DNA from: Archaeoglobus neptunius
GTDB taxonomy: Archaea > Halobacteriota > Archaeoglobi > Archaeoglobales > Archaeoglobaceae
DNA length: 64,000 bases
NCBI RefSeq assembly: GCF_016757965.1
Contig: NZ_JAEKIW010000007.1
Coordinates: 62,001 to 126,000, forward strand
Direction: 5' to 3'
Shown: piece by piece, positions 11,987 through 59,584 of the stretch
Layout: each line of letters opens with the position of its first letter
How positions within the stretch are numbered: the first letter of the stretch is position 1
Made by a program: the position numbers and the translations under genes
The notes under the pieces: model-generated
Seen by the model: the letters and a program-made list of their open reading frames with translations, nothing else
What the model was told of the DNA's origin: nothing
The model's database searches: none

Positions 11987-12064
11987 GATATAACTTAGGC
12001 ATTAAAACTATTAAAACCTATTGTGGTGATGGATGAAAGGTAATTGGCATGTTTGGGATATAGA

Positions 12065-12250
12065 TCATAAACACGAGCGGAGCAAGATGGCATCTTCCGG
12101 ACAGGCGTCAACGCATGCGCAACACTCTATGCAGTCCTCGGCCCTTAGTGCATGGGCGTAATCTTCAGCAATTTCGTAAACATTGAAGGGGCAGACTTCA
12201 GCACATCTTCCACACCCCGTGCACGTTTCGAGAACGACTATTGATACCAT
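12065..12250 (-). CDS. 2[4Fe-4S] ferredoxin
   Basis: This 61-residue electron carrier has two classic cluster motifs, CTGCGRCAEVCPF and CIECCACVDACPE. Spacing CxxCxxCxxxCP is intact in both. It is divergent from the Lhr-type helicase gene with 75 bases between starts and has no obvious partner enzyme adjacent, so it is probably a general ferredoxin. Confidence 0.92.
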   Translation of the reverse strand: MVSIVVLETCTGCGRCAEVCPFNVYEIAEDYAHALRAEDCIECCACVDACPEDAILLRSCL

Positions 12251-12265
12251 ACCATGCGTGCGGCA

Positions 12266-12290
12266 TCCAAATAAAAATCTTTATCGTAAG
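12266..12290 (+). promoter_or_regulatory. Promoter of the Lhr-type helicase gene
   Basis: CCAAATAAAAATCTTTATC lies 35-55 bases before the ATG at 12325 and gives a BRE/TATA-like block. The ribosome-binding site CCTGGGAGGC sits at 12301-12310. This supports the ATG at 12325 over the in-frame ATG at 12241. Confidence 0.45.
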
Positions 12291-12324
12291 GTTTAATTCT
12301 CCTGGGAGGCATTTATTTTCTGCG

Positions 12325-15012
12325 ATGCTGAACAGGAAACTCAGGGAGGCCGTCAGGTCTGTTGGGATAGAAGAACTTACAGATCTTCAGCTAGAGGCAT
12401 TCAGGAAGATATCCTCCGGGAAGGACGTGCTGATAATCGCACCCACCGGGAGTGGAAAAACTGAAGCGGCACTCATTCCCGTTCTTAACAGGATTCTCGA
12501 AACTGGTTATGAAGAGGGAATACTGGCCCTGTACATCACACCTCTGAGAGCTCTGAACAGGGACATGCTGAGAAGAATCAGAAAGATTTCAGAGATTGTC
12601 GGAATTAGCGTGGATGTCAGGCATGGAGACACCCCAGACTCGGAAAGATTAAGACAGTCGAAAAACCCGCCCCATCTGCTGATTACCACTCCTGAGACCT
12701 TTCAGATCCTTTTCCTCGGAAAAAGGCTGAGGAAAGCCCTGAAAAATGTGAAGTTTGTAATAATTGATGAAATCCATGAACTGATTGACAGCGAGAGAGG
12801 TGTGCAGTTAAGCATTGCCATTGAAAGGCTCAGGGAGCTGTCCAGATTTCAGACTATTGGTCTGTCGGCTACTGTCAGCAGACCTGAGGTTGTTTCCGGG
12901 TTTGTCGGGACAGATGCTGAAATCGTGGAATGGAAAGTGGAGAAGGAGTATGATGTGAGGGTTGTAAAGCCCAGGCCTGATGACAGGACGGGAAGGGAGC
13001 TTGGTGTTGATGGGGATATAGGAGGAGAATTGAGATTCATTGCCGATGTTGTTAAAAAATATGGGCCTGCCCTAATTTTTGTAAACACACGTCAGACGGC
13101 AGAGGCACTGGGTGTGAAGCTCAAGAGGCTTTTGAAATGTGAAGTGCACCATGGCAGCCTTTCGAGGGAGGCCAGGGTTGAGGCAGAGGAGAAATTTGCA
13201 AGCGGTGAGCTCGAAGCTCTCATCTGCACATCTTCGATGGAGCTGGGGATAGATATCGGCCATGTGGAAGTTGTGGTTCAATATGGCAGTCCGAGACAGG
13301 CTGTGAGATTGGTGCAGAGAGTCGGGAGAAGCGGACACGGTCTTGGAAGATCATCCCGCGGTTACATTGTTGCAAGCAGTTTCGATGATATTCTGGAATC
13401 GATGGCCATCGTGAGAAGGGCGGAGGAGGGACTGCTTGAGGATGCGGATATTCACTTCGGAAGTCTTGACGTTCTCGCAAATCAGATATGTGCCATGGCT
13501 TTAGAGTATGGCAGGATTGCAGCGAAAGATGCCTACAGGATTGTGAGAAGAGCACATCCTTACAGAACTCTTAGTTTTGAGGAATTCGAGCTTGTCTGTG
13601 AATATCTGAGAGATATTGGAAAGATCTTCTATGATGAGGGCGAAATTGGGGCCAGAAGAAATACAAGGAGATATTTTTACGACAACATATCCATGATTCC
13701 TGATGAGAGGAGATACAGGGTTGTTGACATCACAAGTGGGAGGACAATAGGGTCTCTAGATGAAAGCTTTCTCTCCACCTTCAGCGGTGAGATATTCGCA
13801 ATGAAAGGCGAGCTGTGGAGGGTTCTGAGTGTTGATGATGTTGTTAAAGTCGAGCCCGTCTCGGTTGAGGGTGAGATACCTTCCTGGGCTGGAGAGGAAA
13901 TCCCTGTACCCTTTGAGGTGGCTCAGGATGTTGGAAAAATCAGGAAGTGGATTGGCGGTATTGTGAGATCCAGGGGTGAGAAAGCTGCAATTGAGACTCT
14001 AAAAGAGTACGTTGGCAAGGAAGGGGCCGAAGCCGTTGTTGAAGTGCTTGCAAAACAGATCGAAGGTGGGTTTCTGATTCCAGATGACAGCCGTATTGTG
14101 GTGGACGGATCAGGTGGAATTGTGGTGGTCAACGCATGTTTCGGACACAAGGTGAACGAGACAGTTGGAAAAATACTGGCCCTCCTCCTCACAGCCAGAA
14201 GAGGAGGCAATGTTGCGGTTGAGATAGATCCATACAGGATAAAACTATCTCCCGCGAGACCTGAAGACGTTTCAGACCTTTTGAGATCTATCGAGCCAGA
14301 AAGCGTCGAGTTTCTGGCAGAGCGCTCAGTTTTTGACACAAAGCTCATGCAGTGGAAGGTTGTGAACGCTGCCAGAAAGTTTGGACTGATAGATAGAGGG
14401 GATGAACTAAGCAGAATCAATCTCAGGAGCCTGGTGGTTAAGTTAAAAGACACTCCAGTTTACAGGGAAGCGTTGAGAGAAATTTTTGTTGAGAAGATGG
14501 ATATCGAGAGGTCAAGAGAGATTTTCAGAGGTATTGGGGATGGAAGGATTGAGATATCAACTTATGAAGAGATGAGCCCGATAAGCATGGTTTCAAGGGG
14601 GAAAAATCTGGACATACTCTCGGTCAGATCTCCCGAGGCGATACTCAGGGCCTTCAGAAGGAGGCTTGAAAATGAGGTATGCAAGGTATACTGCCTGAAC
14701 TGCAAGGCGAGTTACTCGGAAAAGGTCGAGAACTTCAGTAAGTTTACATGCATAAGATGCGGATCAAGAATGATAGCCGTTTTCAATTCAAGGAGGGATG
14801 TTGGTGACTTCAAAAAGGAAGAGCTTTTCAAACTGGCAAATCTGGTCATGGGATATGGAAAGAGGGCGGTTTATGCCCTTTCTACCTATGGAATAGGGGC
14901 TGAAACTGCCTCTCGGTTGCTCTCGAGGTATTACCTTTCCGAAGATGATTTCTTCAAGGCTCTTATCGAGGCGGAGAGAAACTACGTGAGAACGAGGAGG
15001 TTCTGGGATTGA
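12325..15012 (+). CDS. lhr: Lhr-type DEAD/DEAH-box helicase
   Basis: This ATP-dependent superfamily 2 helicase is implicated in repair and in replication-fork or RNA-DNA hybrid unwinding in archaea. The 895 residues include Walker A LIIAPTGSGKTEA, DEIH box IIDEIHELIDSERGVQ, SAT motif LSATVSRP, FVNTRQTAE, and motif VI QRVGRSGHG. A winged-helix and Lhr core follow. A C-terminal zinc ribbon (CLNCKASY...CIRCGSRM, about 790-820) precedes a final helical segment. The start was set at 12325; the upstream 28 codons overlap the ferredoxin start region and look non-coding. Confidence 0.9.
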   Translation: MLNRKLREAVRSVGIEELTDLQLEAFRKISSGKDVLIIAPTGSGKTEAALIPVLNRILETGYEEGILALYITPLRALNRDMLRRIRKISEIVGISVDVRHGDTPDSERLRQSKNPPHLLITTPETFQILFLGKRLRKALKNVKFVIIDEIHELIDSERGVQLSIAIERLRELSRFQTIGLSATVSRPEVVSGFVGTDAEIVEWKVEKEYDVRVVKPRPDDRTGRELGVDGDIGGELRFIADVVKKYGPALIFVNTRQTAEALGVKLKRLLKCEVHHGSLSREARVEAEEKFASGELEALICTSSMELGIDIGHVEVVVQYGSPRQAVRLVQRVGRSGHGLGRSSRGYIVASSFDDILESMAIVRRAEEGLLEDADIHFGSLDVLANQICAMALEYGRIAAKDAYRIVRRAHPYRTLSFEEFELVCEYLRDIGKIFYDEGEIGARRNTRRYFYDNISMIPDERRYRVVDITSGRTIGSLDESFLSTFSGEIFAMKGELWRVLSVDDVVKVEPVSVEGEIPSWAGEEIPVPFEVAQDVGKIRKWIGGIVRSRGEKAAIETLKEYVGKEGAEAVVEVLAKQIEGGFLIPDDSRIVVDGSGGIVVVNACFGHKVNETVGKILALLLTARRGGNVAVEIDPYRIKLSPARPEDVSDLLRSIEPESVEFLAERSVFDTKLMQWKVVNAARKFGLIDRGDELSRINLRSLVVKLKDTPVYREALREIFVEKMDIERSREIFRGIGDGRIEISTYEEMSPISMVSRGKNLDILSVRSPEAILRAFRRRLENEVCKVYCLNCKASYSEKVENFSKFTCIRCGSRMIAVFNSRRDVGDFKKEELFKLANLVMGYGKRAVYALSTYGIGAETASRLLSRYYLSEDDFFKALIEAERNYVRTRRFWD

Positions 15013-52029: not shown

Positions 52030-52231
52030 TTTTATGTGGGTTGCCAATATTCCCGTAAGTTCGAATATAAATATTTATATAAATGAATTGAAAAAGCAGC
52101 GACAATATGACATGAACTGAATTTTATAAGCCGGGTTAATCCACATGTATTGCCGTATATCTAAATAGGTGTCCCGGATAAGTGCAGTATGCGATTTAAC
52201 CTGTAAATGCTGCAAGTTTACAGAAAAACAG
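52030..52231. other. Intergenic region between korB and tRNA-Arg
   Basis: About 200 AT-rich bases with TATA-like runs (ATATAAATATTTATATAAATG at 52062-52083) but no open frame beyond a few codons. I see no RNA gene. It may hold the korB terminator. Confidence 0.4.
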
Positions 52232-52303
52232 TGCCCCCGCCGGGAATTGAACCCGGGTCTGAGGCTCCGAAGGCCTCCAGGATGTCCCCTACCCCACGGG
52301 GGC
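52232..52303 (-). tRNA. tRNA-Arg (anticodon TCG)
   Basis: On the minus strand an acceptor stem GCCCCCG pairs with CGGGGGC, followed by discriminator A. The anticodon stem GAGGC/GCCTC encloses loop CTTCGGA, giving anticodon TCG (Arg, CGA codons). The T-arm is CCGGG-TTCAATT-CCCGG and the D-stem GGGT/ATCC. CCA is not encoded. No intron is visible. The unusual island starts just beyond its 5' end. Confidence 0.95.
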
Positions 52304-52508
52304 CTTACAAAGTAGCCAGAAGGTGAATAAAAAATTTAGGTTGTTGCGGTTTTTCAGCACGCACATTGCGTTTGCATTCGCTGTGATTGTTGTTGCAAGT
52401 CCAATGAAATGTGTATACCATACTAAACTTTTAAAAATATATTACTAAGATATTAGAACACTTAAGTTGTGTGATGGCGAGATAAAGGTGAGGTGGAGTG
52501 GTGGTGAG
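52304..52508. other. Left boundary of the accessory island
   Basis: About 200 bases without a gene. The minus-strand tRNA promoter should be near 52315-52335 (TTTTTTATTCACC read on the minus strand). The plus strand has AACTTTTAAAAATAT (52427-52441) and ACTTAAGTTGTGTGATGGCGAG (52461-52482). The latter resembles the leader of the duplicated cassette further on. The SD-like GGTGGTGAG precedes the ATG at 52509. Confidence 0.45.
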
Positions 52509-53319
52509 ATGAAAAGGTTGTTGTGTTTGTTGTTAACGTTGGTGATGCTCAGCGTAGTAAGCCCAGCGATGCGAACGGCAAAAACATCGGAACCAAGACG
52601 AAACTTTTGATTATCAGGTTGAGACGAAGGAGATTTACCATCACTCGGCAAATGGAAGGGACTTGAAATTTAATGAGGTAAGAGTCCACAACAATACTGC
52701 AAGCTTCAGCTTCTACATAGTAAGCTACTCCACCAAAACAGCAACCCACAACTTCAGTCTTGTAACGAGGATAATTGAAGGTGAGGAGAACTACTTTGTT
52801 GCTGCAATTAACATCGCCCCAAAAAGATGGGAACAAATCCTCGCCCTTTGCCGATGTGATCGAAATTAGGTCTAAAACTACCTTGGCTGAACATTACAGA
52901 ATTCTTGCCAAGGTGCTTAGCAAAATGAAGGAAGAGACAAGCTGGAATGAAGCTAAGAATGAACTGAACGACCTGGCCAAGAGGGTTGAGTTGGATCTGG
53001 CTAATTACAACTTAAGAGGGACGGGACAGCCTTTGTTACCAACAACGATTGCTCTTACTTGTGTAACATTGTATGTGGTTCCGGCTTTGCCATATTATGC
53101 TTGTCTGGGGAATAATCGAAGGCCACCTGATTGGAGCGATAGTGCAGCGTCTCCACAAGCATAAGCTGCACGGCAATTTGTGGTGAAGTCTGCAATGAGC
53201 CCGTTAGTTGGGAGGATTTAACGTGTGCTGGTGCCTGCGATCTATTTTTCGTGACGCCAGGTGCTGTGGGCGATCCTCGCTGCAAAACGGTGCAATTCTG
53301 TTCAGCACTCATTACATAA
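52509..53319 (+). pseudogene. Broken pro-halocin C8-like cysteine-rich secreted precursor
   Basis: An ATG at 52509 opens a signal peptide (MKRLLCLLLTLVMLSVVSPA), but the frame stops at 52610. Coding continues in a second frame (from about 52597, VETKEIYHHSANGRDLKFNE to VAAINIAP), shifts at an A-run near 52822 (FADVIEIRSKTTLAEHYRIL), and shifts again near 53055. The C-terminal part is cysteine-rich (TCNIVCGSGFAILCLSG, then SCTAICGEVCNEPVSWEDLT and CAGACDLFF), ending at 53319. Signal peptide, about 150-residue N-domain and Cys-rich C-domain match the layout of pro-halocin C8, whose N-domain is the immunity protein. Several disruptions make a functional product unlikely. Confidence 0.55.
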
Positions 53320-53952
53320 TAACTGGCCTTCACATTCTCGATTTAGCAGTTGTATTCACCATAATGCTCAGCGGGGTAATGCTTTACGCTCCACTCGCCT
53401 TCTTACTCTTCTACCCAATCGGCAAATTGTTCGATAGGGACTTTCCCTTCAGCAGACCATTTTTCCTTTCCTTTGGATTTCATTTGCCTGATTTTAACGC
53501 TGATATCATACGAGAAACTGGGCGTGTGTTGGGAACCCTTGCTTGTAAGCATCTCATGGATAATCGTCGGTTTCATCCCCCCTCTCGCAAACAAAAGCCG
53601 GAGCATAGAAATTTTGTCTCTTGCAGTATTGCTCACTCCACTCGCCCTTCTCTTGCTCAAAGTTCTGCCGGCCTTGGCAGCGGAGTGTACTTTAAATCTT
53701 CAGACAAATTCGCAATTTGCGGTAAAATTAGCAGCCTTGATTTTCACATCTCTTCTCGCAATTTTTGTTGTGCTGCGGGTGTTTGGCTATGACTTGAGCG
53801 TAAAATCGTTAAGAGAACTTTCTGAGAGGAGGAGAGCAGCAATGAAAGAGGGAAGCTACAGTATTTTGAAGGATCCCATCATCTGGATAACTTGGGTTAT
53901 TTTAACTTCAACTGGGTTACTAATCGCTTTATTTATGGGGTTGATACGATGA
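53320..53952 (+). pseudogene. Frameshifted polytopic membrane protein of the halocin-like island
   Basis: Hydrophobic coding starts right after the cysteine-rich frame (HILDLAVVFTIMLSGVMLY and PLAFLLFYPIGKLFDRDF), then loses phase near 53430-53475 in a T-rich run. It continues in another frame (LDFICLILTLISYEKLGVCW, VSISWIIVGFIPPLANKS, ILSLAVLLTPLALLLLKVL, LAALIFTSLLAIFVVLRVFG) to 53952. Five or six helices are evident. The downstream part alone could start at TTG 53473. Immunity or export for the upstream peptide is a guess from context. Confidence 0.5.
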
Positions 53953-54576
53953 AACTTGAGCGTGCCTTTCCTGGTACTGCAAGAGTGAGAAACTACCTTA
54001 ACATCACGATCTTCGCAATCACGCTCGCAATAATAGCTTTCGGACTCAGGTTTCAGCCGAGCCTGTCGTTTATCGGATTGGTTGTCCAGCTTGCAGTATT
54101 TCCAGCAGTGGTGGCAAGATTCCGCATACTGCTTCTTTGGGCTTCTTCTGAACGCAATCCTGCTCCATTTTATCTTGAACGTGAAAGACCCTGATCTCGG
54201 CATGACCCTTATGGGACTGCTTGTCTACTCAATAATTGTAGTTCCAGACGTTGCAGTGACATCGCTGCTGATCGATGAGAAAACGAAGAACTGGGAAATA
54301 TTCGCCTTTTACTTCTGGTTCCTGATTTCCGTCGGGCTGGCAATCCTTTTCCTGATGTCTGCAGGATCCGCAGATGTGTATCCAGTCACTTCCGTAACGC
54401 CGTTATCCCGGTTGATCGCTCTTACTGCATTTTATCTCGAACTTGCAGCTATACCGTCTACTCTCGTTTTGCTCTACAGACGTGTGAGGGTTTTTCTGGT
54501 TTTCATACCGATGCCGCTTCTGCTCGGTTATGCTCTGGTCCTCACAAGTAAGGTGGTTGGAATTTTGGGTGGGTGA
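53949..54576 (+). pseudogene. Second membrane protein of the island, one frameshift
   Basis: The start ATG at 53949 overlaps the previous stop (ATGA). The frame encodes MKLERAFPGTARVRNYLNIT and helices IFAITLAIIAFGL and FIGLVVQLAVFPAVVARF, after which it ends at 54194 in a charged, unlikely tail. From about 54110 the hydrophobic coding continues one frame over (FGLLLNAILLHFILNVKD, MTLMGLLVYSIIVVPDVAV, FYFWFLISVGLAILFLMS) to 54576. About seven helices in all. A single base change in length would restore one protein. I do not recognise the family. Confidence 0.5.
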
Positions 54577-54640
54577 AAGAATGGGAGAACTCAATGTTAG
54601 TTCTGGTTGTCAGAGCTATGTTCAATGCGAACTAATGCTC

Positions 54641-54796
54641 AATTTAACAAACATTTAGAATAATCTTAGAGAACCATAGTAAACTTTCAGAAATATAAAC
54701 CATAGGTATCAAAAAACTTAAGTTACGAGATGACAAGTCAATGACGGTGGTAGCGTGGCAGGGTGGAAGAGGTTTGTAAGCCTGTTGGTGCTGGTG
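54641..54796 (+). repeat. Duplicated promoter/signal-peptide cassette, copy A
   Basis: About 155 bases covering an AT-rich upstream region, a TATA element (AAAAAACTTAAGTTA, near 54711-54725), a leader with GGTGG and the first codons of a secreted protein recur at 57454-57608. By eye, only a handful of substitutions and one single-base gap separate them. The 3' boundary lies within the signal peptide, where the downstream proteins diverge. Confidence 0.85.
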
Positions 54797-55615
54797 CTGG
54801 TGATGGTTGGAAACGCGCTGCCGGTGATGGCTGCGGAAATTGACAGCCAAGAATTCAAGCAGCAGAAGCTGAAGTTCATGTTCGTCAAACTTCTCTGGGA
54901 AAACTGGCCGCACAAGGATTCTGGATATGAGATAAAATGGGGAGGTTCGACACACAAGACAATCGCTGGAGAAGTTGGTAGAGCGATGGGTATTGGAGAC
55001 CCCTATCTGACCACATTCAGAGAGTATTCTGTTAAGCCTGATGAGGAGGATTCAATGTGGTGGCCACCATGGTGCCCCGATAGGCTGTGTAAACACGTTT
55101 ACGATCCCGAACTTCATTTCGGAAGTGCCCCTCAAGCGTGCAGTGAAAAAGCATGGGATGCTATCAGTAACTATCGCCAAGGAAAATTGAGAGAAGCTTA
55201 TCAGGAGCTTGGTAGAGCCGCGCACTATCTTATGGATGTGGGTAATCCGTATCATTCAAATCTTGAAGGAGATCCACATACAAACAAGCTCAAACATGAT
55301 TTTTATGAAAAATACGTTGAAGGGAACATCCAAAAGTTGGGGCTTGATACAATTGCATATTCTGCCCCTAAGATAACAATTACGAATCCCTATACCGCAG
55401 TTGAAGAGCTGGCAAGTTTTTCGAGGATGTATAAATACTCTCTTGACTCAGCTATAGGCGTTCGATGCAACTTCTACGACCCCACAGGAGTTTGTTTGGA
55501 ATGGGAAGCGTATGCCGTTGATGAAGCTCTCATAAAAATGGTTGCAAAAACTATGATTCAGAAAACTGCCGGATACACAAAGGGTCTAATAGAATACTTT
55601 GAACGTAACAACTGA
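54755..55615 (+). CDS. Secreted zinc-dependent phospholipase C-like protein
   Basis: The 286-residue protein starts at GTG 54755 (after GGTGG) with a signal peptide (FVSLLVLVLVMVGNALPVMA). Its mature part has IKWGGSTHKTIAGEVGRAMG, then LREAYQELGRAAHYLMDVGNPYHSN and HDFYEKYV. The pattern of an early Trp/His, a middle H-D pair (AHYLMDxxNPYH) and a final HxFYE matches the three-zinc phospholipase C/S1-P1 nuclease fold. It probably acts outside the membrane. Five cysteines are unusual for a hyperthermophile cytosolic protein and fit secretion. It is the one intact large gene in the island's first half. Confidence 0.7.
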   Translation: MAGWKRFVSLLVLVLVMVGNALPVMAAEIDSQEFKQQKLKFMFVKLLWENWPHKDSGYEIKWGGSTHKTIAGEVGRAMGIGDPYLTTFREYSVKPDEEDSMWWPPWCPDRLCKHVYDPELHFGSAPQACSEKAWDAISNYRQGKLREAYQELGRAAHYLMDVGNPYHSNLEGDPHTNKLKHDFYEKYVEGNIQKLGLDTIAYSAPKITITNPYTAVEELASFSRMYKYSLDSAIGVRCNFYDPTGVCLEWEAYAVDEALIKMVAKTMIQKTAGYTKGLIEYFERNN

Positions 55616-55625
55616 GGTGATAAAT

Positions 55626-56330
55626 TTGAGAGAACATCTGAAAAACGCTCTTAAAATTTTTTTAGCTCTCAGCATCATTCTTTTCCTGTTTTGGGTATTC
55701 TTCATCCTGCCCCTCATCATAGAGTTCAACAACACTCCTCCAAATCTGATGCTCGTCGTAGAATCTGACTCTCTTGTTGAGAACGTTACTTTACTTTTCC
55801 CCATCTACACCTACGCTAACTGGAGTGTCGAGTTTTCTGATTGCGTAGGTGCTGAGTGCAACATTTCAGTTGTTGAAACCGAATACGGAAAGATGTGGAA
55901 GATCTGGATGAGTGATGTTGGTTGGACTGAGGAAGAGGTTAAGAGGGAGGGTGTTGGAGAAGAGGGGGCAGGAAGTGCGACGGTCTTCGTACAGCCCTAC
56001 ACGTCAAACCAGCCACCGATAGATCTGTTCAGCATAAACCTGAACCCCACGACAAAGTATAAAGAGGAAGTTTCGGAGAGCGGAAGATACTATGTCAGAA
56101 CCGCCAACATCACGATTCCGGTGTGCGTGGAGTATGAGGGTAACCTCACGGAAATAAAGGTTAAGCTGGTGGTTCAGTCAGGACTTTACGGCATTCTCGG
56201 GATAATACCATGGTCTCCGAAGCATGATGGAAAAGTGTACTCAGGAATGAGGGAGGATGAGTTCCTCCTGGATTTCAAGGGGTGCAGAAATGTCACTGGG
56301 TTTTCGAAGATAGATATCGTGTACCAGTAG
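55626..56330 (+). CDS. Membrane-anchored surface protein, island paralogue 1
   Basis: The start is TTG 55626, four bases after the strong SD GAGGTGAT. The 234-residue protein has one N-terminal helix (about 8-30, IFLALSIILFLFWVFFILPL) and an extracytoplasmic beta-rich domain with several N-x-S/T sites. It contains NVTLLFPIYTYANWSVEF, VVETEYGKMWKIWMSDVG and KVYSGMREDEFLL. It shares the order V-x-N-V/L-T-L-x-x-P, VETEYGKM and YSGxR with the next gene. Family not recognised. It follows the phospholipase gene by 10 bases, so it is co-transcribed. Confidence 0.6.
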   Translation: MREHLKNALKIFLALSIILFLFWVFFILPLIIEFNNTPPNLMLVVESDSLVENVTLLFPIYTYANWSVEFSDCVGAECNISVVETEYGKMWKIWMSDVGWTEEEVKREGVGEEGAGSATVFVQPYTSNQPPIDLFSINLNPTTKYKEEVSESGRYYVRTANITIPVCVEYEGNLTEIKVKLVVQSGLYGILGIIPWSPKHDGKVYSGMREDEFLLDFKGCRNVTGFSKIDIVYQ

Positions 56331-56340
56331 AGGTGGTAAA

Positions 56341-56982
56341 TTGCCAAACAGGATTTTGGCTGTCGTCATTTTCTTATTACTTCTACTCGCAATAGGCTAC
56401 TGGTTCTCCAGCAGCTTTTTTCTCCAGTTTCTGGAGCTTAAGGGGGAGTGGCATTACGAAATCAAAGCCGAAGGAGATGTCAGAAACCTAACACTGATGA
56501 TCCCCATGGTCGAGATTAAAAATGCCAGAGCAACTCTTAACCCCAACGTGTCGATTGTTGAAACCGAATATGGGAAAATGGTGAGAACCCGAGTTTCTGA
56601 GCTTGATTCAAAAACGCTGGTTTATGAGATTTCCATGCACAAGGTGTTCGACATCTTCAATGCTACCCTCAATTGTGAAAGGGAGCTGATCTCAAAAAGC
56701 AAGGAAGAGACTTGTGATAACTGCAACTGCTACAACTGGGTGTACAAGATCAGATGTCCGATATACGCAGATTACGATGGAGACGGAAGTGTTAGGGTTG
56801 AGTTGTGGATTCACTCTGGTCAGAAATTCAAGCCAGTCTTCTTCACCTTCACGCTGCCTGACGGACCTTTTTACAAGGGCAAGCATTATTCTGGACACAG
56901 GTTTGTAAGTTTCATCGTTAACAGCACAGGGTATGCTGAGGTTGAAGGGGAGGATAAGACCTATGCGTGCTTTGTCGGGTAA
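56341..56982 (+). CDS. Membrane-anchored surface protein, island paralogue 2
   Basis: The start is TTG 56341 following GAGGTGGTAAA. The 213-residue protein has one N-terminal helix (AVVIFLLLLLAIGYWFSSSF) and an outer domain with VRNLTLMIPMVEIKNARATL, SIVETEYGKMVRTRVSEL, a CDNCNCYNW cysteine cluster and HYSGHRFVSFIV. It is paralogous to the preceding gene by shared motifs in the same order. Function is unknown; immunity or surface anchoring would fit a bacteriocin-like context but is unproven. Confidence 0.6.
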   Translation: MPNRILAVVIFLLLLLAIGYWFSSSFFLQFLELKGEWHYEIKAEGDVRNLTLMIPMVEIKNARATLNPNVSIVETEYGKMVRTRVSELDSKTLVYEISMHKVFDIFNATLNCERELISKSKEETCDNCNCYNWVYKIRCPIYADYDGDGSVRVELWIHSGQKFKPVFFTFTLPDGPFYKGKHYSGHRFVSFIVNSTGYAEVEGEDKTYACFVG

Positions 56983-57133
56983 AAAACATGGTTTTCAACA
57001 GCTTATTTCTGCTACATTCCATCACTCCCGATCGAAAAGAGTTGTCTGCGAAGTTGCATGCAACTTCCTCCTGAGCTATGAAGCTTGCAGTCTCGGTGTA
57101 GGAGAAGTTTGCAGGAGGGCTGGCTTGTGTTGA
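56983..57133 (+). pseudogene. Halocin C8-like C-terminal peptide fragment
   Basis: An open frame continuing past the paralogue 2 stop encodes RVVCEVACNFLLSYEACSLG followed by VGEVCRRAGLC and a TGA at 57131-57133. As I recall it, mature halocin C8 ends ACNRAGLC and has the same density of paired cysteines. No start codon with SD or signal peptide precedes it; the visible part is roughly the last third of a halocin C8-type domain. Its stop overlaps the start of the next membrane protein. Confidence 0.6.
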
Positions 57134-57417
57134 AGAAGAATTTAATATTCTTAATTTATGGATTTTTAATTTTTTCGTCTGTTTTCATCCCAAAAAGAAT
57201 AATCGACTGGCTTTACGCAGAACAAGGTTTTGTTTCAGAGAGTATTCGACTCGGTCTTTCAGCAGCATCTTCCGTATTTTTTGTGGTTGTAGTACTTTTC
57301 ATTGCTGAAAGACAGGTTGGGCTCGGAAAGAGGCACGTCATCATCGCTGGAGCGTTTCTTGCCCTGCTCATATGCATGTATCTGTACTTTTTCGAGTTTG
57401 TGACTGGAGGTGATTGA
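57127..57417 (+). CDS. Small membrane protein coupled to the halocin-like fragment
   Basis: The 96-residue protein starts at GTG 57127 or TTG 57130, after the SD GCAGGAGGG (57111-57119). It thus overlaps the end of the halocin-like frame. It has three helices (about 4-20, LIFLIYGFLIFSSVFI; 44-62, AASSVFFVVVVLFIA; 71-90, IIAGAFLALLICMYLYFF). Small multi-helix proteins encoded directly after a bacteriocin are often immunity proteins; that is inference only. Confidence 0.6.
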   Translation: MLKKNLIFLIYGFLIFSSVFIPKRIIDWLYAEQGFVSESIRLGLSAASSVFFVVVVLFIAERQVGLGKRHVIIAGAFLALLICMYLYFFEFVTGGD

Positions 57418-57471
57418 ATGAGACGTTTTCTCGTACTTTTCCCACCTACACTTAATTCAACTGACATTTAG
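57418..57471 (+). pseudogene. Start of a gene cut off at the repeat boundary
   Basis: An ATG overlapping the previous stop (TGAATGA) begins MRRFLVLFPPTLNSTDI and stops at 57471, inside repeat copy B. The overlap suggests a former downstream gene of the operon that was truncated when the cassette copy arrived. Confidence 0.4.
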
Positions 57472-57608
57472 AATAATCTTAGAGAACCATAGTAAACTTT
57501 CAGAAATATAACCATAGGTATCAAAAAACTTAAGTTACGTTATGGCAAGTCAATGACGGTGGTAGCGTGGCAGGGTGGAAGAGGTTTGTAAGCCTGTTGG
57601 TGCTGGTG
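57454..57608 (+). repeat. Duplicated promoter/signal-peptide cassette, copy B
   Basis: Second copy of the 54641-54796 block with the same TATA (AAAAAACTTAAGTTA), leader and signal-peptide codons (MAGWKRFVSLLVLV). Visible differences include AACAAAC versus AACTGAC, ATAAACC versus ATAACC, and CGAGATGACA versus CGTTATGGCA. The orientation is the same, 2.81 kb apart. Confidence 0.85.
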
Positions 57609-57791
57609 ATGTTGGGGAGTGCTGCTTCAGCAGTTGCGTGGGGTGGACCAACTCATTACAGCATCGTAAAGAAGTTTGATGTTAAGATAAGTAAAAACAA
57701 ACTCAGCAAGTTGTATGTGGAGAAACTTAGGGAAAAGACGGACTTGAAAAACAATTTGATGATTAAATGCCCGGCTTTCGACTGCTATTGA
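57567..57791 (+). pseudogene. Truncated phospholipase C-like secreted protein
   Basis: The GTG at 57567 corresponds to the start of the full phospholipase at 54755. The 74-residue frame keeps the signal peptide (MAGWKRFVSLLVLVMLGSAA) and the first motif AWGGPTHYSIVKK, then ends KCPAFDCY without the later zinc ligands. It is probably a truncated paralogue. The end overlaps the next reading frame by 25 bases. Confidence 0.6.
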
Positions 57792-58271
57792 TTATCGCCA
57801 TTATTGCATCCATACTTTTCATTACTCAAGCTCAGGTTAACATTGTCGAGTACCATGTTGTCGTTGATCCGATAAATTGCAGTGAGGCTGTAACGGTTTA
57901 CGTTCCGGTAGCGCTAAAAGAGGACGGAAGCGTTCATGAGGTTATGTACAGCGGTTAAAGGTCATTATTCACACAGAGTTCCAGTTCTTGGCGAGCTTGA
58001 TGCCATCAAACCGAGTGCTGCGAAGATCAAATCCCATTATGAGCCGGCAGAAGTTTACATCTACATGTCTGGATGCGCTAAGATTAACCTCAAGTTCGAG
58101 ACTTGGTCAAAGTGTTCTGGATTGGCATTGCCGATGCATACAGGCTACGTCTGGGGATTCTGGTTTGATGGTTACAGGGAGAAGGTAACTCTAAAAGAGG
58201 GGGTGGAGCAACTATACAGTTGCATGCATGGTCGTCTGAGTAGCTTAAGCCTCAAAACCCTTAACTCATAA
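57767..58271 (+). pseudogene. Frameshifted surface protein, island paralogue 3
   Basis: The ATG at 57767 begins a signal or anchor segment (RLLLIIAIIASILFITQAQV) and VVVDPINCSEAVTVYVPVAL, stopping at 57958. The following frame, overlapping from 57936, continues GHYSHRVPVLGELDAIKPSA to YVWGFWFDGYREKVTLKEGV and stops at 58271. The early T-V-x-V-P-V and the later G-x-W-F-D-G-Y-R-E-K-V segments match the layout of the two intact paralogues. One frameshift near 57950 would restore it. Confidence 0.5.
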
Positions 58272-58302
58272 CTTATAAGCAAAGTTAAGGAGGTGCACAG
58301 CC

Positions 58303-58953
58303 TTGGACGTAAAGAGGATTGTAGTTACTATCATCTCTCCACTTATCCTGCACTTCTACATCCCAATTCCGGTTGCCATTGCATTGGTGAGGAGAAATTT
58401 CCTGTACGCTCTCCTACCCATCATTGCCGCGACATTCTTAGTCTCAGACAGAATCAGCTACGGCCCCTTTATCCTGTACCCGGTTTCACACTTCACAATT
58501 CCAGCACTCGCACTGTTTGCAGCCATCATTACCCTCTCTATTCTGCTCGCAAGACACGAGAGGGTTTGGAAAATCCTCATCTTCATTGTTATTGCGATTT
58601 CCATACTGCATTCTCTAACTCCAGTTTTCAAGATAAGTGGTGAATGTTCCGGATGCAGAGAGGTTGTGATTAACTTTCTGGACTCAAAAACCGTGTTCTG
58701 CTTACGTTTAAGCTCAGGAATGGTTTCTGAAACGAAATACTACCACCTGACCATCTTCCCTCTGAAGTCCGAAGGGGTGATTGTTACAGGGCTGCATCCT
58801 GTGAGATTAAAAATCGACTCCGCTTTCAGCTTTGCAGGAGGGCATGCTTCATTCTACGCTGGTGATATCAGAAGCCTGGAGCTTTGCTGTTATCCTGAAA
58901 CAATCATCGGAACGATACCCGTTCCGGTGTGCAGTAGTTTAAATCTGGAGTGA
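58303..58953 (+). CDS. Membrane protein with extracytoplasmic C-terminal domain
   Basis: The start is TTG 58303, 7 bases after a near-perfect SD AGGAGGTG. The 216-residue protein has about four N-terminal helices (for example VVTIISPLILHFYIPIPVAI and IPALALFAAIITLSILLA). It then has a C-terminal outer domain with paired cysteines (SGECSGCREVV, VFCLRL, LELCCYPE). Family not recognised. It is the last gene of the island and looks intact. Confidence 0.6.
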   Translation: MDVKRIVVTIISPLILHFYIPIPVAIALVRRNFLYALLPIIAATFLVSDRISYGPFILYPVSHFTIPALALFAAIITLSILLARHERVWKILIFIVIAISILHSLTPVFKISGECSGCREVVINFLDSKTVFCLRLSSGMVSETKYYHLTIFPLKSEGVIVTGLHPVRLKIDSAFSFAGGHASFYAGDIRSLELCCYPETIIGTIPVPVCSSLNLE

Positions 58954-59050
58954 TTTTGATCGTTTATGCAGTTATGGATGCAAAGAGAAGATAGTTAAAA
59001 AGCTGATTGCAGATTTTTTGCACCTTGTCGTGCATTTCTGCAGTGGAAAA

Positions 59051-59584
59051 TCACCTGTAAAGGCTGTTGCCATGCGCATCAATTGCCACAATACATGGCC
59101 CGAACCTTTCCACTTCAAAGATCCAAACGGCTTCCGGCATACCGAGATCCTCCCAGATAACGTCCTTAACCCTCCTGATTTTCTGGGCGGCAAGTGCTCC
59201 TGCACCTCCTGTAAAAGCAAGGTACACTGCCTTACCCCTCATAGCCTCAACAACGTCATCGCTCATGCCCCCCTTACCGATTATGGCCATGCAGGTAACC
59301 CTCTCAAGAATCTTCGGTGTGAAGGGGTTCATTCTCGCCGATGTTGTTGGACCTGCTGAAACAACCCTCCACTCACCATCCTTCTTGACGAGAGGTCCGC
59401 AGTGGTAGACAACAGCCCCCTCAAACGAAAATGGAAGCTCCTTACCTTCTTCCAGATATTCAAGAGCCCTTGCATGAGCTTCATCTCTTGCGGTGAATAT
59501 CTCTCCGGTGATGTAAACAGAATCACCAACTCTGAGCTTCAGCAACTCGTCTTTAGATAGAGGGGTCCTGATTTCGTACTCCAT
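59051..59584 (-). CDS. fumB: Fumarate hydratase class I, beta subunit
   Basis: This is the C-terminal-type subunit of the 4Fe-4S fumarase. The 177 residues include [66 protein letters not shown] and [28 protein letters not shown], all family features. It follows the alpha subunit by 4 bases. It hydrates the fumarate produced by the succinate dehydrogenase encoded at 40-43 kb. Confidence 0.94.

Follow-up and report, generated by a model that had tools for sequence, protein, structure and literature searches.

A decayed island of probable secreted antagonism modules inserted beside tRNA-Arg in Archaeoglobus neptunius

The window analyzed here is a stretch of 64,000 nucleotides from Archaeoglobus neptunius (contig NZ_JAEKIW010000007.1, positions 62,001 to 126,000), and the subject is an island of genes for exported and membrane proteins that lies in it between tRNA-Arg(TCG) (52231–52303, minus strand, called by ARAGORN) and a fumarase subunit gene (59051–59584, minus strand). 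These two borders are 6747 bp apart. Below, G000 is the window's genome (2.12 Mb in 32 contigs, same genus as A. fulgidus), G002 to G050 are the genomes of relatives, C stands for contig, and g1 and g13 are genera. In six relatives (A. fulgidus, G002, G003, G004, G005 and G007) the tRNA-Arg and the fumarase gene are only 30–37 bp apart; since the same junction is empty in each of them, the interval is a true insertion in the window's lineage. An initial annotation had read it as a halocin C8-type bacteriocin locus and had proposed the synteny comparison that revealed the island's absence from the six relatives. It had overlooked the insertion itself, a third copy of a promoter/leader module (52417–52481) and a 412-bp deletion present besides the frameshifts. 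Its gene inventory was borne out: every assignable gene-like frame between the borders is on the plus strand, and the interval holds two broken cysteine-rich frames, one intact and one truncated zinc phospholipase C-like gene, three paralogous anchored proteins and a membrane protein with paired outer cysteines.

The island adjoins the 5′ side of the tRNA-Arg. A site beside a tRNA, many pseudogenes and repeats able to recombine are also what a mobile element or a virus with look-alike cargo would leave behind, the island then being decaying baggage. We consider this extremely improbable, because no integrase was found within the tRNA-Arg to fumarase interval, the 5′ side is not the usual 3′ attachment site, viral contigs contained no relatives, and intact copies persist in operons elsewhere. 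PADLOC returned no match. The far side of the tRNA-Arg is also rearranged, the window's neighbors mapping to 422–436 kb in A. fulgidus. On that side, A. fulgidus (L120 1500–7800) and G007 (L121 50–3400) carry repeated small genes paired with PIN-like genes, an array at this junction that resembles an antitoxin–toxin array.

The first island gene (52511–53260, plus strand) is a broken precursor of a cysteine-rich peptide, designated type alpha, with 54% identity to an intact precursor in G004 (E=6e-69). It is split over at least three frames, with a signal peptide at 52511–52609, pro-region pieces at 52594–52836 and 52823–53080, and a cysteine-rich end in pieces to 53260. A deletion of about 412 bp relative to G004, located at 53260/53264, has cost the alpha peptide its end and the next gene, TM1 (53264–53952, plus strand), its beginning. 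TM1, the predicted immunity partner of type alpha, is a truncated and frameshifted gene for a polytopic membrane protein; its counterpart downstream of the intact type-alpha precursor in G004 is 67% identical over 163 amino acids (aa). It is followed by a second polytopic membrane gene, TM2 (53949–54576, plus strand), frameshifted in two frames, whose homologues in A. fulgidus and genus g13 lie near precursor genes. Also broken in the window are a halocin-C8-like peptide, one phospholipase-like gene and an anchored protein, S3; a phospholipase-like gene with the anchored proteins S1 and S2, a protein with three transmembrane (TM) helices and a 4-TM protein are still open. We reject sequencing error as an explanation for these broken genes: the 412-bp deletion spans precursor and partner, the second phospholipase-like gene has an internal deletion, and the housekeeping genes on both flanks have open frames.

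The precursor family was found in genera g1 and g13 of the Archaeoglobaceae, with intact members in G004, G005, A. fulgidus and others. Its members consist of a signal peptide, a conserved pro-region and an exchangeable cysteine-rich C-terminus. The pro-regions are 49–94% identical over their last 140 residues and have a common end (...TSWxWNKAKxELxYLSRxVERxLxEYNVEGxGxA...D), beyond which divergence is complete: C-termini of different types are 20–36% identical or unalignable. In one comparison, 89% identity in the pro-region contrasted with 27% over the C-terminal 52 aa, and within one genome two pro-regions are 91% identical while the C-termini share nothing alignable. The C-termini of intact members contain 10–18 cysteines in 71–109 aa. 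A conserved N-terminus joined to an exchangeable C-terminal effector, one of the marks of polymorphic toxins, is thus present in this family. Signal peptides read from the sequence (MKRLLCLLLTLVMLSVVS, MLKRVVAGLLVLVMLGSAVMPAMA) contain no twin arginine and hence no Tat-type export signal. Two cysteine-rich secreted proteins of G002:C28 (L056 14902–15681 and L057 5659–6366), with 19 cysteines each, have other pro-regions and are followed by small membrane proteins. Near a precursor locus in G050:C9, a gene for a secreted C39-type peptidase (L065 11718–12872; PF13529, 49.9 bits) encodes a precursor-like signal peptide; the enzyme is a possible maturation protease of the precursors. A C39-like fragment, recognized by eye, adjoins an operator in G009 (L149 1–402).

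Of the 15 precursor loci, 14 have a polytopic protein encoded immediately downstream (judged from hydropathy counts in 13 cases and by eye in the other), compared with 25% of background open reading frames that are polytopic. The family of this downstream protein follows the type of the peptide. Alpha peptides occur with TM1 in the window and in G004 (67% identity), beta peptides with the partner f42 in G005:C34 and G002:C28, gamma peptides with f5 in A. fulgidus and G004 (85%), and halocin-C8 type 2 peptides with the 4-TM protein FRKD in contig 6 of the window's genome and in G044. When the two loci of the beta, gamma and type-2 pairs were compared directly, only the effector and partner genes were common to both; for the alpha pair, the window's site is the tRNA–fumarase junction, which is empty in G004. 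The match between peptide type and partner is therefore perfect across eight loci (four pairs), for which the chance under random pairing is 1/105, and a type-matched downstream partner, a further mark of polymorphic toxins, is found for four types in unrelated contexts. Alpha peptides share 35% identity with beta peptides, and TM1 is a distant homologue of f42, as co-divergence predicts. In A. fulgidus an intact precursor (L055 8465–9517) and the halocin-C8-like one (L055 10287–10910) form a pair, with a downstream membrane gene at L055 9511–10290. Contents also differ between species at one chromosomal site, as in G004:C9 versus G005:C6, or in A. fulgidus, where the site holds 14.7 kb, versus contig 2 of the window's genome, where it holds 1.85 kb. 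The partner changes with the peptide type and probably protects the producer.

The likeness to halocin C8, part of the initial annotation, held for the family and failed for the first gene. Above the curated cut-off of 24 bits of the hidden Markov model (HMM) TIGR04449 (halocin_C8_dom) are two proteins with the same pro-region, one in A. fulgidus (L055:10287–10910, 60.0 bits) and one in the second genus (G049, 35.2 bits), so that the intact precursors looked for in relatives do exist. By contrast, TIGR04449 matched neither the window gene 52511–53260 nor its intact relative P0002, and a scan of the joined pieces with NCBIfam and Pfam HMMs gave no match. The C-terminal piece is instead 89% identical over 28–35 aa to C-termini in G002 and G004; the window's own C-terminus is of a type different from halocin C8 that is intact in a relative. 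The second broken frame (57035–57133, plus strand) is a 33-codon remnant, probably of a halocin-C8-like C-terminus (KRVVCEVACNFLLSYEACSLGVGEVCRRAGLC-stop). It would represent the last 32 residues of the domain, matches TIGR04449 positions 41–69 of 69 in register with the end of the model, though only partially and under the cut-off (16.1 bits, E=0.017), and retains the C-x7-C-x5-C end of intact members. Its stop codon (57131–57133) is overlapped by the GTG start of the 3-TM membrane protein gene (57127–57417, plus strand; three TM helices by KD count), whose product is the predicted immunity protein of the lost peptide.

Halocin C8 is a peptide released from the C-terminus of its precursor (PMC12893001), and in haloarchaea the N-terminal part of the precursor has been described as the immunity protein (PMC11509114). 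With a halocin C8 domain in the family and this description at hand, the island could be a case of halocin C8 proper, in which one gene yields both peptide and immunity through a HalI-like N-terminal part and the membrane genes are incidental. Searched in six frames in 393 genomes of the phylum, TIGR04449 was present in 25, many outside the Archaeoglobaceae and haloarchaea included; the pro-region profile matched only Archaeoglobaceae and no haloarchaeon in the same set. Therefore the peptide is common to both groups and the carrier is not detectably so, and the pro-region of the first broken gene shows no detectable relationship to HalI of the haloarchaeal genomes searched. Moreover, one pro-region serves unlike peptides and cannot therefore be peptide-specific, and the membrane partners follow the peptide type. 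Halocin C8 proper is thus a very unlikely account of the locus.

Downstream of TM2, the window contains an intact gene for a secreted zinc phospholipase C-like protein of 286 aa (54755–55615, plus strand). Its PF00882 score of 24.5 bits (E=2.9e-5) is slightly under the gathering cut-off of 26.8 bits; relatives encoded in A. fulgidus, in G006 and on contig 6 of the window's genome reached 50.8, 40.9 and 31.9 bits. The zinc-ligand motifs HxxxD-x5-H and HxxxE (H-x3-E) are present as HYLMDVGNPYH and HDFYE and align with those of a solved phospholipase C (PDB 8cqm, E=1.9e-4). The gene downstream of a phospholipase-like gene encodes either a small membrane protein or an S protein of the anchored kind. 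In the window it is S1 (55626–56330, plus strand), intact and the predicted partner of the phospholipase-like protein, which shows 39–43% identity to the genes after homologous phospholipase-like genes in G002:C28 and G000:C2. S1 combines a single TM helix at its N-terminus with a beta-rich domain (AlphaFold model, pLDDT 76); no solved structural relative of the model was found. Its intact paralogue S2 (56341–56982, plus strand) is 25% identical to the same G002 gene and has the stretch VETEYGKM in common with S1. The second phospholipase-like gene (57567–57791, plus strand) is an internal-deletion remnant that joins residues 1–35 and 310–330 of its intact 337-aa homologue on contig 6, and the frameshifted S3 (57767–58271, plus strand) is, in three frames, 64–86% identical to an intact gene on that contig. 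The last island gene (58303–58953, plus strand) encodes an intact 4-TM protein of 216 aa with paired outer cysteines; homologues with 40–51% identity occur in A. fulgidus, G006 and G008, and the one in A. fulgidus comes after a secreted-protein gene.

Three copies of a promoter/leader module, all on the plus strand, precede these effector genes. Copy 1 (52417–52510), with an A+T-rich box and a ACTTAAGTT palindrome, shows 74–77% identity to the other two over 60–66 bp; copy 2 (54638–54802), which extends into the signal-peptide codons, and copy 3 (57451–57614) are 93–95% identical to each other. The same leader DNA is therefore common to the phospholipase-like genes at 54755 and 57567 and the precursor at 52511. 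The leaders of the contig 6 phospholipase-like gene and halocin-C8 precursor are likewise 98.6% identical over 71 nt, and those of the corresponding A. fulgidus genes 86.5% over 52 nt. This leader identity of 93–95%, homologue matches to 6e-69 and the absence of the island in six relatives place the overall pattern beyond chance. Two more promoter/signal-peptide modules lie on contig 3 of the window's genome (L005 8312–8435 and 10755–10895), adjoining a 160-aa secreted protein and its 2-TM neighbor, which recur together in G002:C27.

In related species, CTAAAnnnTTTAG palindromes form arrays with exact 20-bp steps (L058 3360–3452; L057 4409–4461 and 6429–6521; L060 5735–5827). These arrays lie upstream of precursors (G004, G005), of phospholipase-like genes (G002, G006, G030), of a cysteine-rich secreted protein (G002) and of glycine-zipper-like secreted proteins (G025, G028). 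Of 57 Archaeoglobales genomes, 10 contained doubled CTAAAnnnTTTAG sites, and none contained the backwards control. FilR1-type regulators stand beside four array loci, the one in G005 being assigned by 77% identity to that of G004; one such regulator gene is L058 3488–4333. The proteins of G025 (L150 591–1481) and G028 (L151 545–1420) combine the same leader and operator with a glycine-zipper region at the C-terminus (GAVIGGIVGEVLGGGVGGVVGGI); a membrane protein of 143–150 aa is encoded after each, and the two are possibly a further effector type. Because leader DNA and operator arrays are common to both, the phospholipase-like genes belong to the same system as the precursors. We lean, if only slightly, toward a regulon throughout the Archaeoglobaceae, hitherto undescribed, in which halocin-C8-like peptides, new cysteine-rich types, phospholipase C-like enzymes and glycine-zipper-like proteins would be swappable secreted effectors under a shared signal-peptide/promoter cassette, often with CTAAAnnnTTTAG arrays and FilR1-type regulators, and with dedicated membrane partners.

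The phospholipase-like genes have homologues in further genera of the Archaeoglobaceae that lack the precursor family, the S proteins are beta-rich and anchored, and antagonistic activity is deduced only. A non-antagonistic surface island, in which the enzymes and anchored proteins have a role in phosphate or lipid scavenging or in building the envelope and the cysteine-rich proteins bind metals or shape the S-layer, would agree with these facts. It would leave unaccounted for the hypervariable C-termini on a near-constant pro-region, the halocin C8 HMM matches, the type-matched membrane partners, the presence or absence of genes at the same site between species, and the leader or operator DNA common with the cysteine-rich precursors; we consider it unlikely. 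We instead favor, with a probability of about 0.72, the reading of the island as a decayed array of secreted antagonism modules of the archaeocin type beside tRNA-Arg, made up of exported effectors with membrane partners.

Each module would comprise an exported effector and then a membrane partner. Effectors of the first kind would begin with a Sec-like signal peptide, followed by some 200 aa of conserved pro-region and by an interchangeable hydrophobic, cysteine-rich peptide of about 70–110 aa. The shared signal peptide would drive export and the pro-region hold or fold the peptide, which is probably freed by a cut between the conserved NVEGxG...D segment and the first cysteine, and would then damage membranes in close relatives. 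The producer is probably shielded by the polytopic membrane protein encoded directly downstream, which varies with the peptide type. The second kind, the zinc phospholipase C-like enzyme, would attack lipid head groups and is probably neutralized or tethered by the outward-facing anchored S protein. A common promoter and signal-peptide DNA, together with a FilR1-type operator array in related species, would allow unlike effectors to be swapped under one control.

Homology, modularity, co-occurrence, insertion, decay and the common leader and operator DNA are established. Several points weigh against the antagonism reading. Most effector genes in the window are pseudogenes, and the system may be dead there; killing, immunity, processing and target are features that we infer. 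The type-alpha C-terminus fits no known toxin model, and the structure models of the precursor and S1 gave no informative fold match, that of the precursor (pLDDT 53) having weak NTF2-like matches only. The 3-TM protein (M110) has no relative in the 57 Archaeoglobales genomes, the halocin-C8 precursor in A. fulgidus precedes a phospholipase-like gene and not a membrane gene, and neither A. fulgidus nor the window's genome has the CTAAAnnnTTTAG arrays, both using another leader. The bacteriocin locus of the initial annotation is supported at the level of the family by intact precursors and TIGR04449 matches in relatives, and needs correcting for the decay of the window copy, the lack of a haloarchaeal match for the pro-region and the different type of the first gene's cysteine-rich end; bacteriocin activity is predicted. 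Decay does not extend to the whole genome: contig 6 keeps an intact operon (L099 8984–11856, G000:C6) of a phospholipase-like gene, an S protein, a halocin-C8-like precursor (24.4 bits against TIGR04449 in six frames and 22.0 bits as a whole protein, the cut-off being 24) and a 4-TM protein, and the strain may therefore still be a producer through that locus. A regulator-like gene, recognized by eye, lies upstream of this operon (12039–12776).

Most archaeal bacteriocins characterized by experiment are from haloarchaea and Sulfolobales. The occurrence of halocin C8-like proteins outside haloarchaea, and of toxin–immunity modules in archaea, is reportedly known in outline from the 2019 survey of Makarova et al. 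(mBio e00715-19), a study cited in PMC8416519. Our literature search, which did not cover that survey, found no paper that connects halocins to the effector loci of Archaeoglobus, and priority is uncertain. If the antagonism reading is true, these hyperthermophiles possess an arsenal in which immunity is separate from the precursor, unlike in halocin C8, and the swapping of C-terminal ends is a route by which peptide toxins evolve in archaea as they do in bacteria. Separate membrane immunity would depart from immunity by the N-terminal part of the precursor, overturning the single-gene model of halocin C8 for this branch. The reading yields testable toxin–immunity pairs, one of them in A. fulgidus, a culturable type species, as well as a predicted operator and regulator.

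Polymorphic toxin systems, archaeal ones among them, resemble the present modules in having a conserved N-terminal delivery part, an exchangeable C-terminal effector, an immunity gene directly downstream and decayed cassettes. They differ in consisting of large contact-dependent proteins that end in nucleases, whereas here we find small secreted disulfide-rich peptides and lipase-like enzymes, with no dedicated secretion apparatus seen. The window's phospholipase-like protein shares zinc-ligand motifs and detectable similarity to a solved phospholipase C with the zinc-dependent phospholipase C family (PF00882), from which it is set apart by its pairing with an anchored protein and by leader/operator DNA common with cysteine-rich precursors. 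Like halocin C8 (HalC8/ProC8; TIGR04449), the Archaeoglobaceae precursors are exported and carry a C-terminal cysteine-rich peptide of about 70 aa, and several of them exceed the HMM cut-off and end in C-x7-C-x5-C. They depart from halocin C8 in that their signal is Sec-like and not of the Tat type, their pro-region is undetectable in haloarchaea and bears several unrelated types of C-terminus, each type has a membrane partner of its own, and phospholipase-like genes are linked to them. In archaeal islands, the VARTIG modules of Thermococcales (PMC8416519) likewise place membrane proteins matched in type downstream of a hypervariable exported protein; VARTIG, however, centers on large Ig-domain proteins, of which none was found here, whereas the Archaeoglobaceae modules present evident toxin candidates that VARTIG does not.

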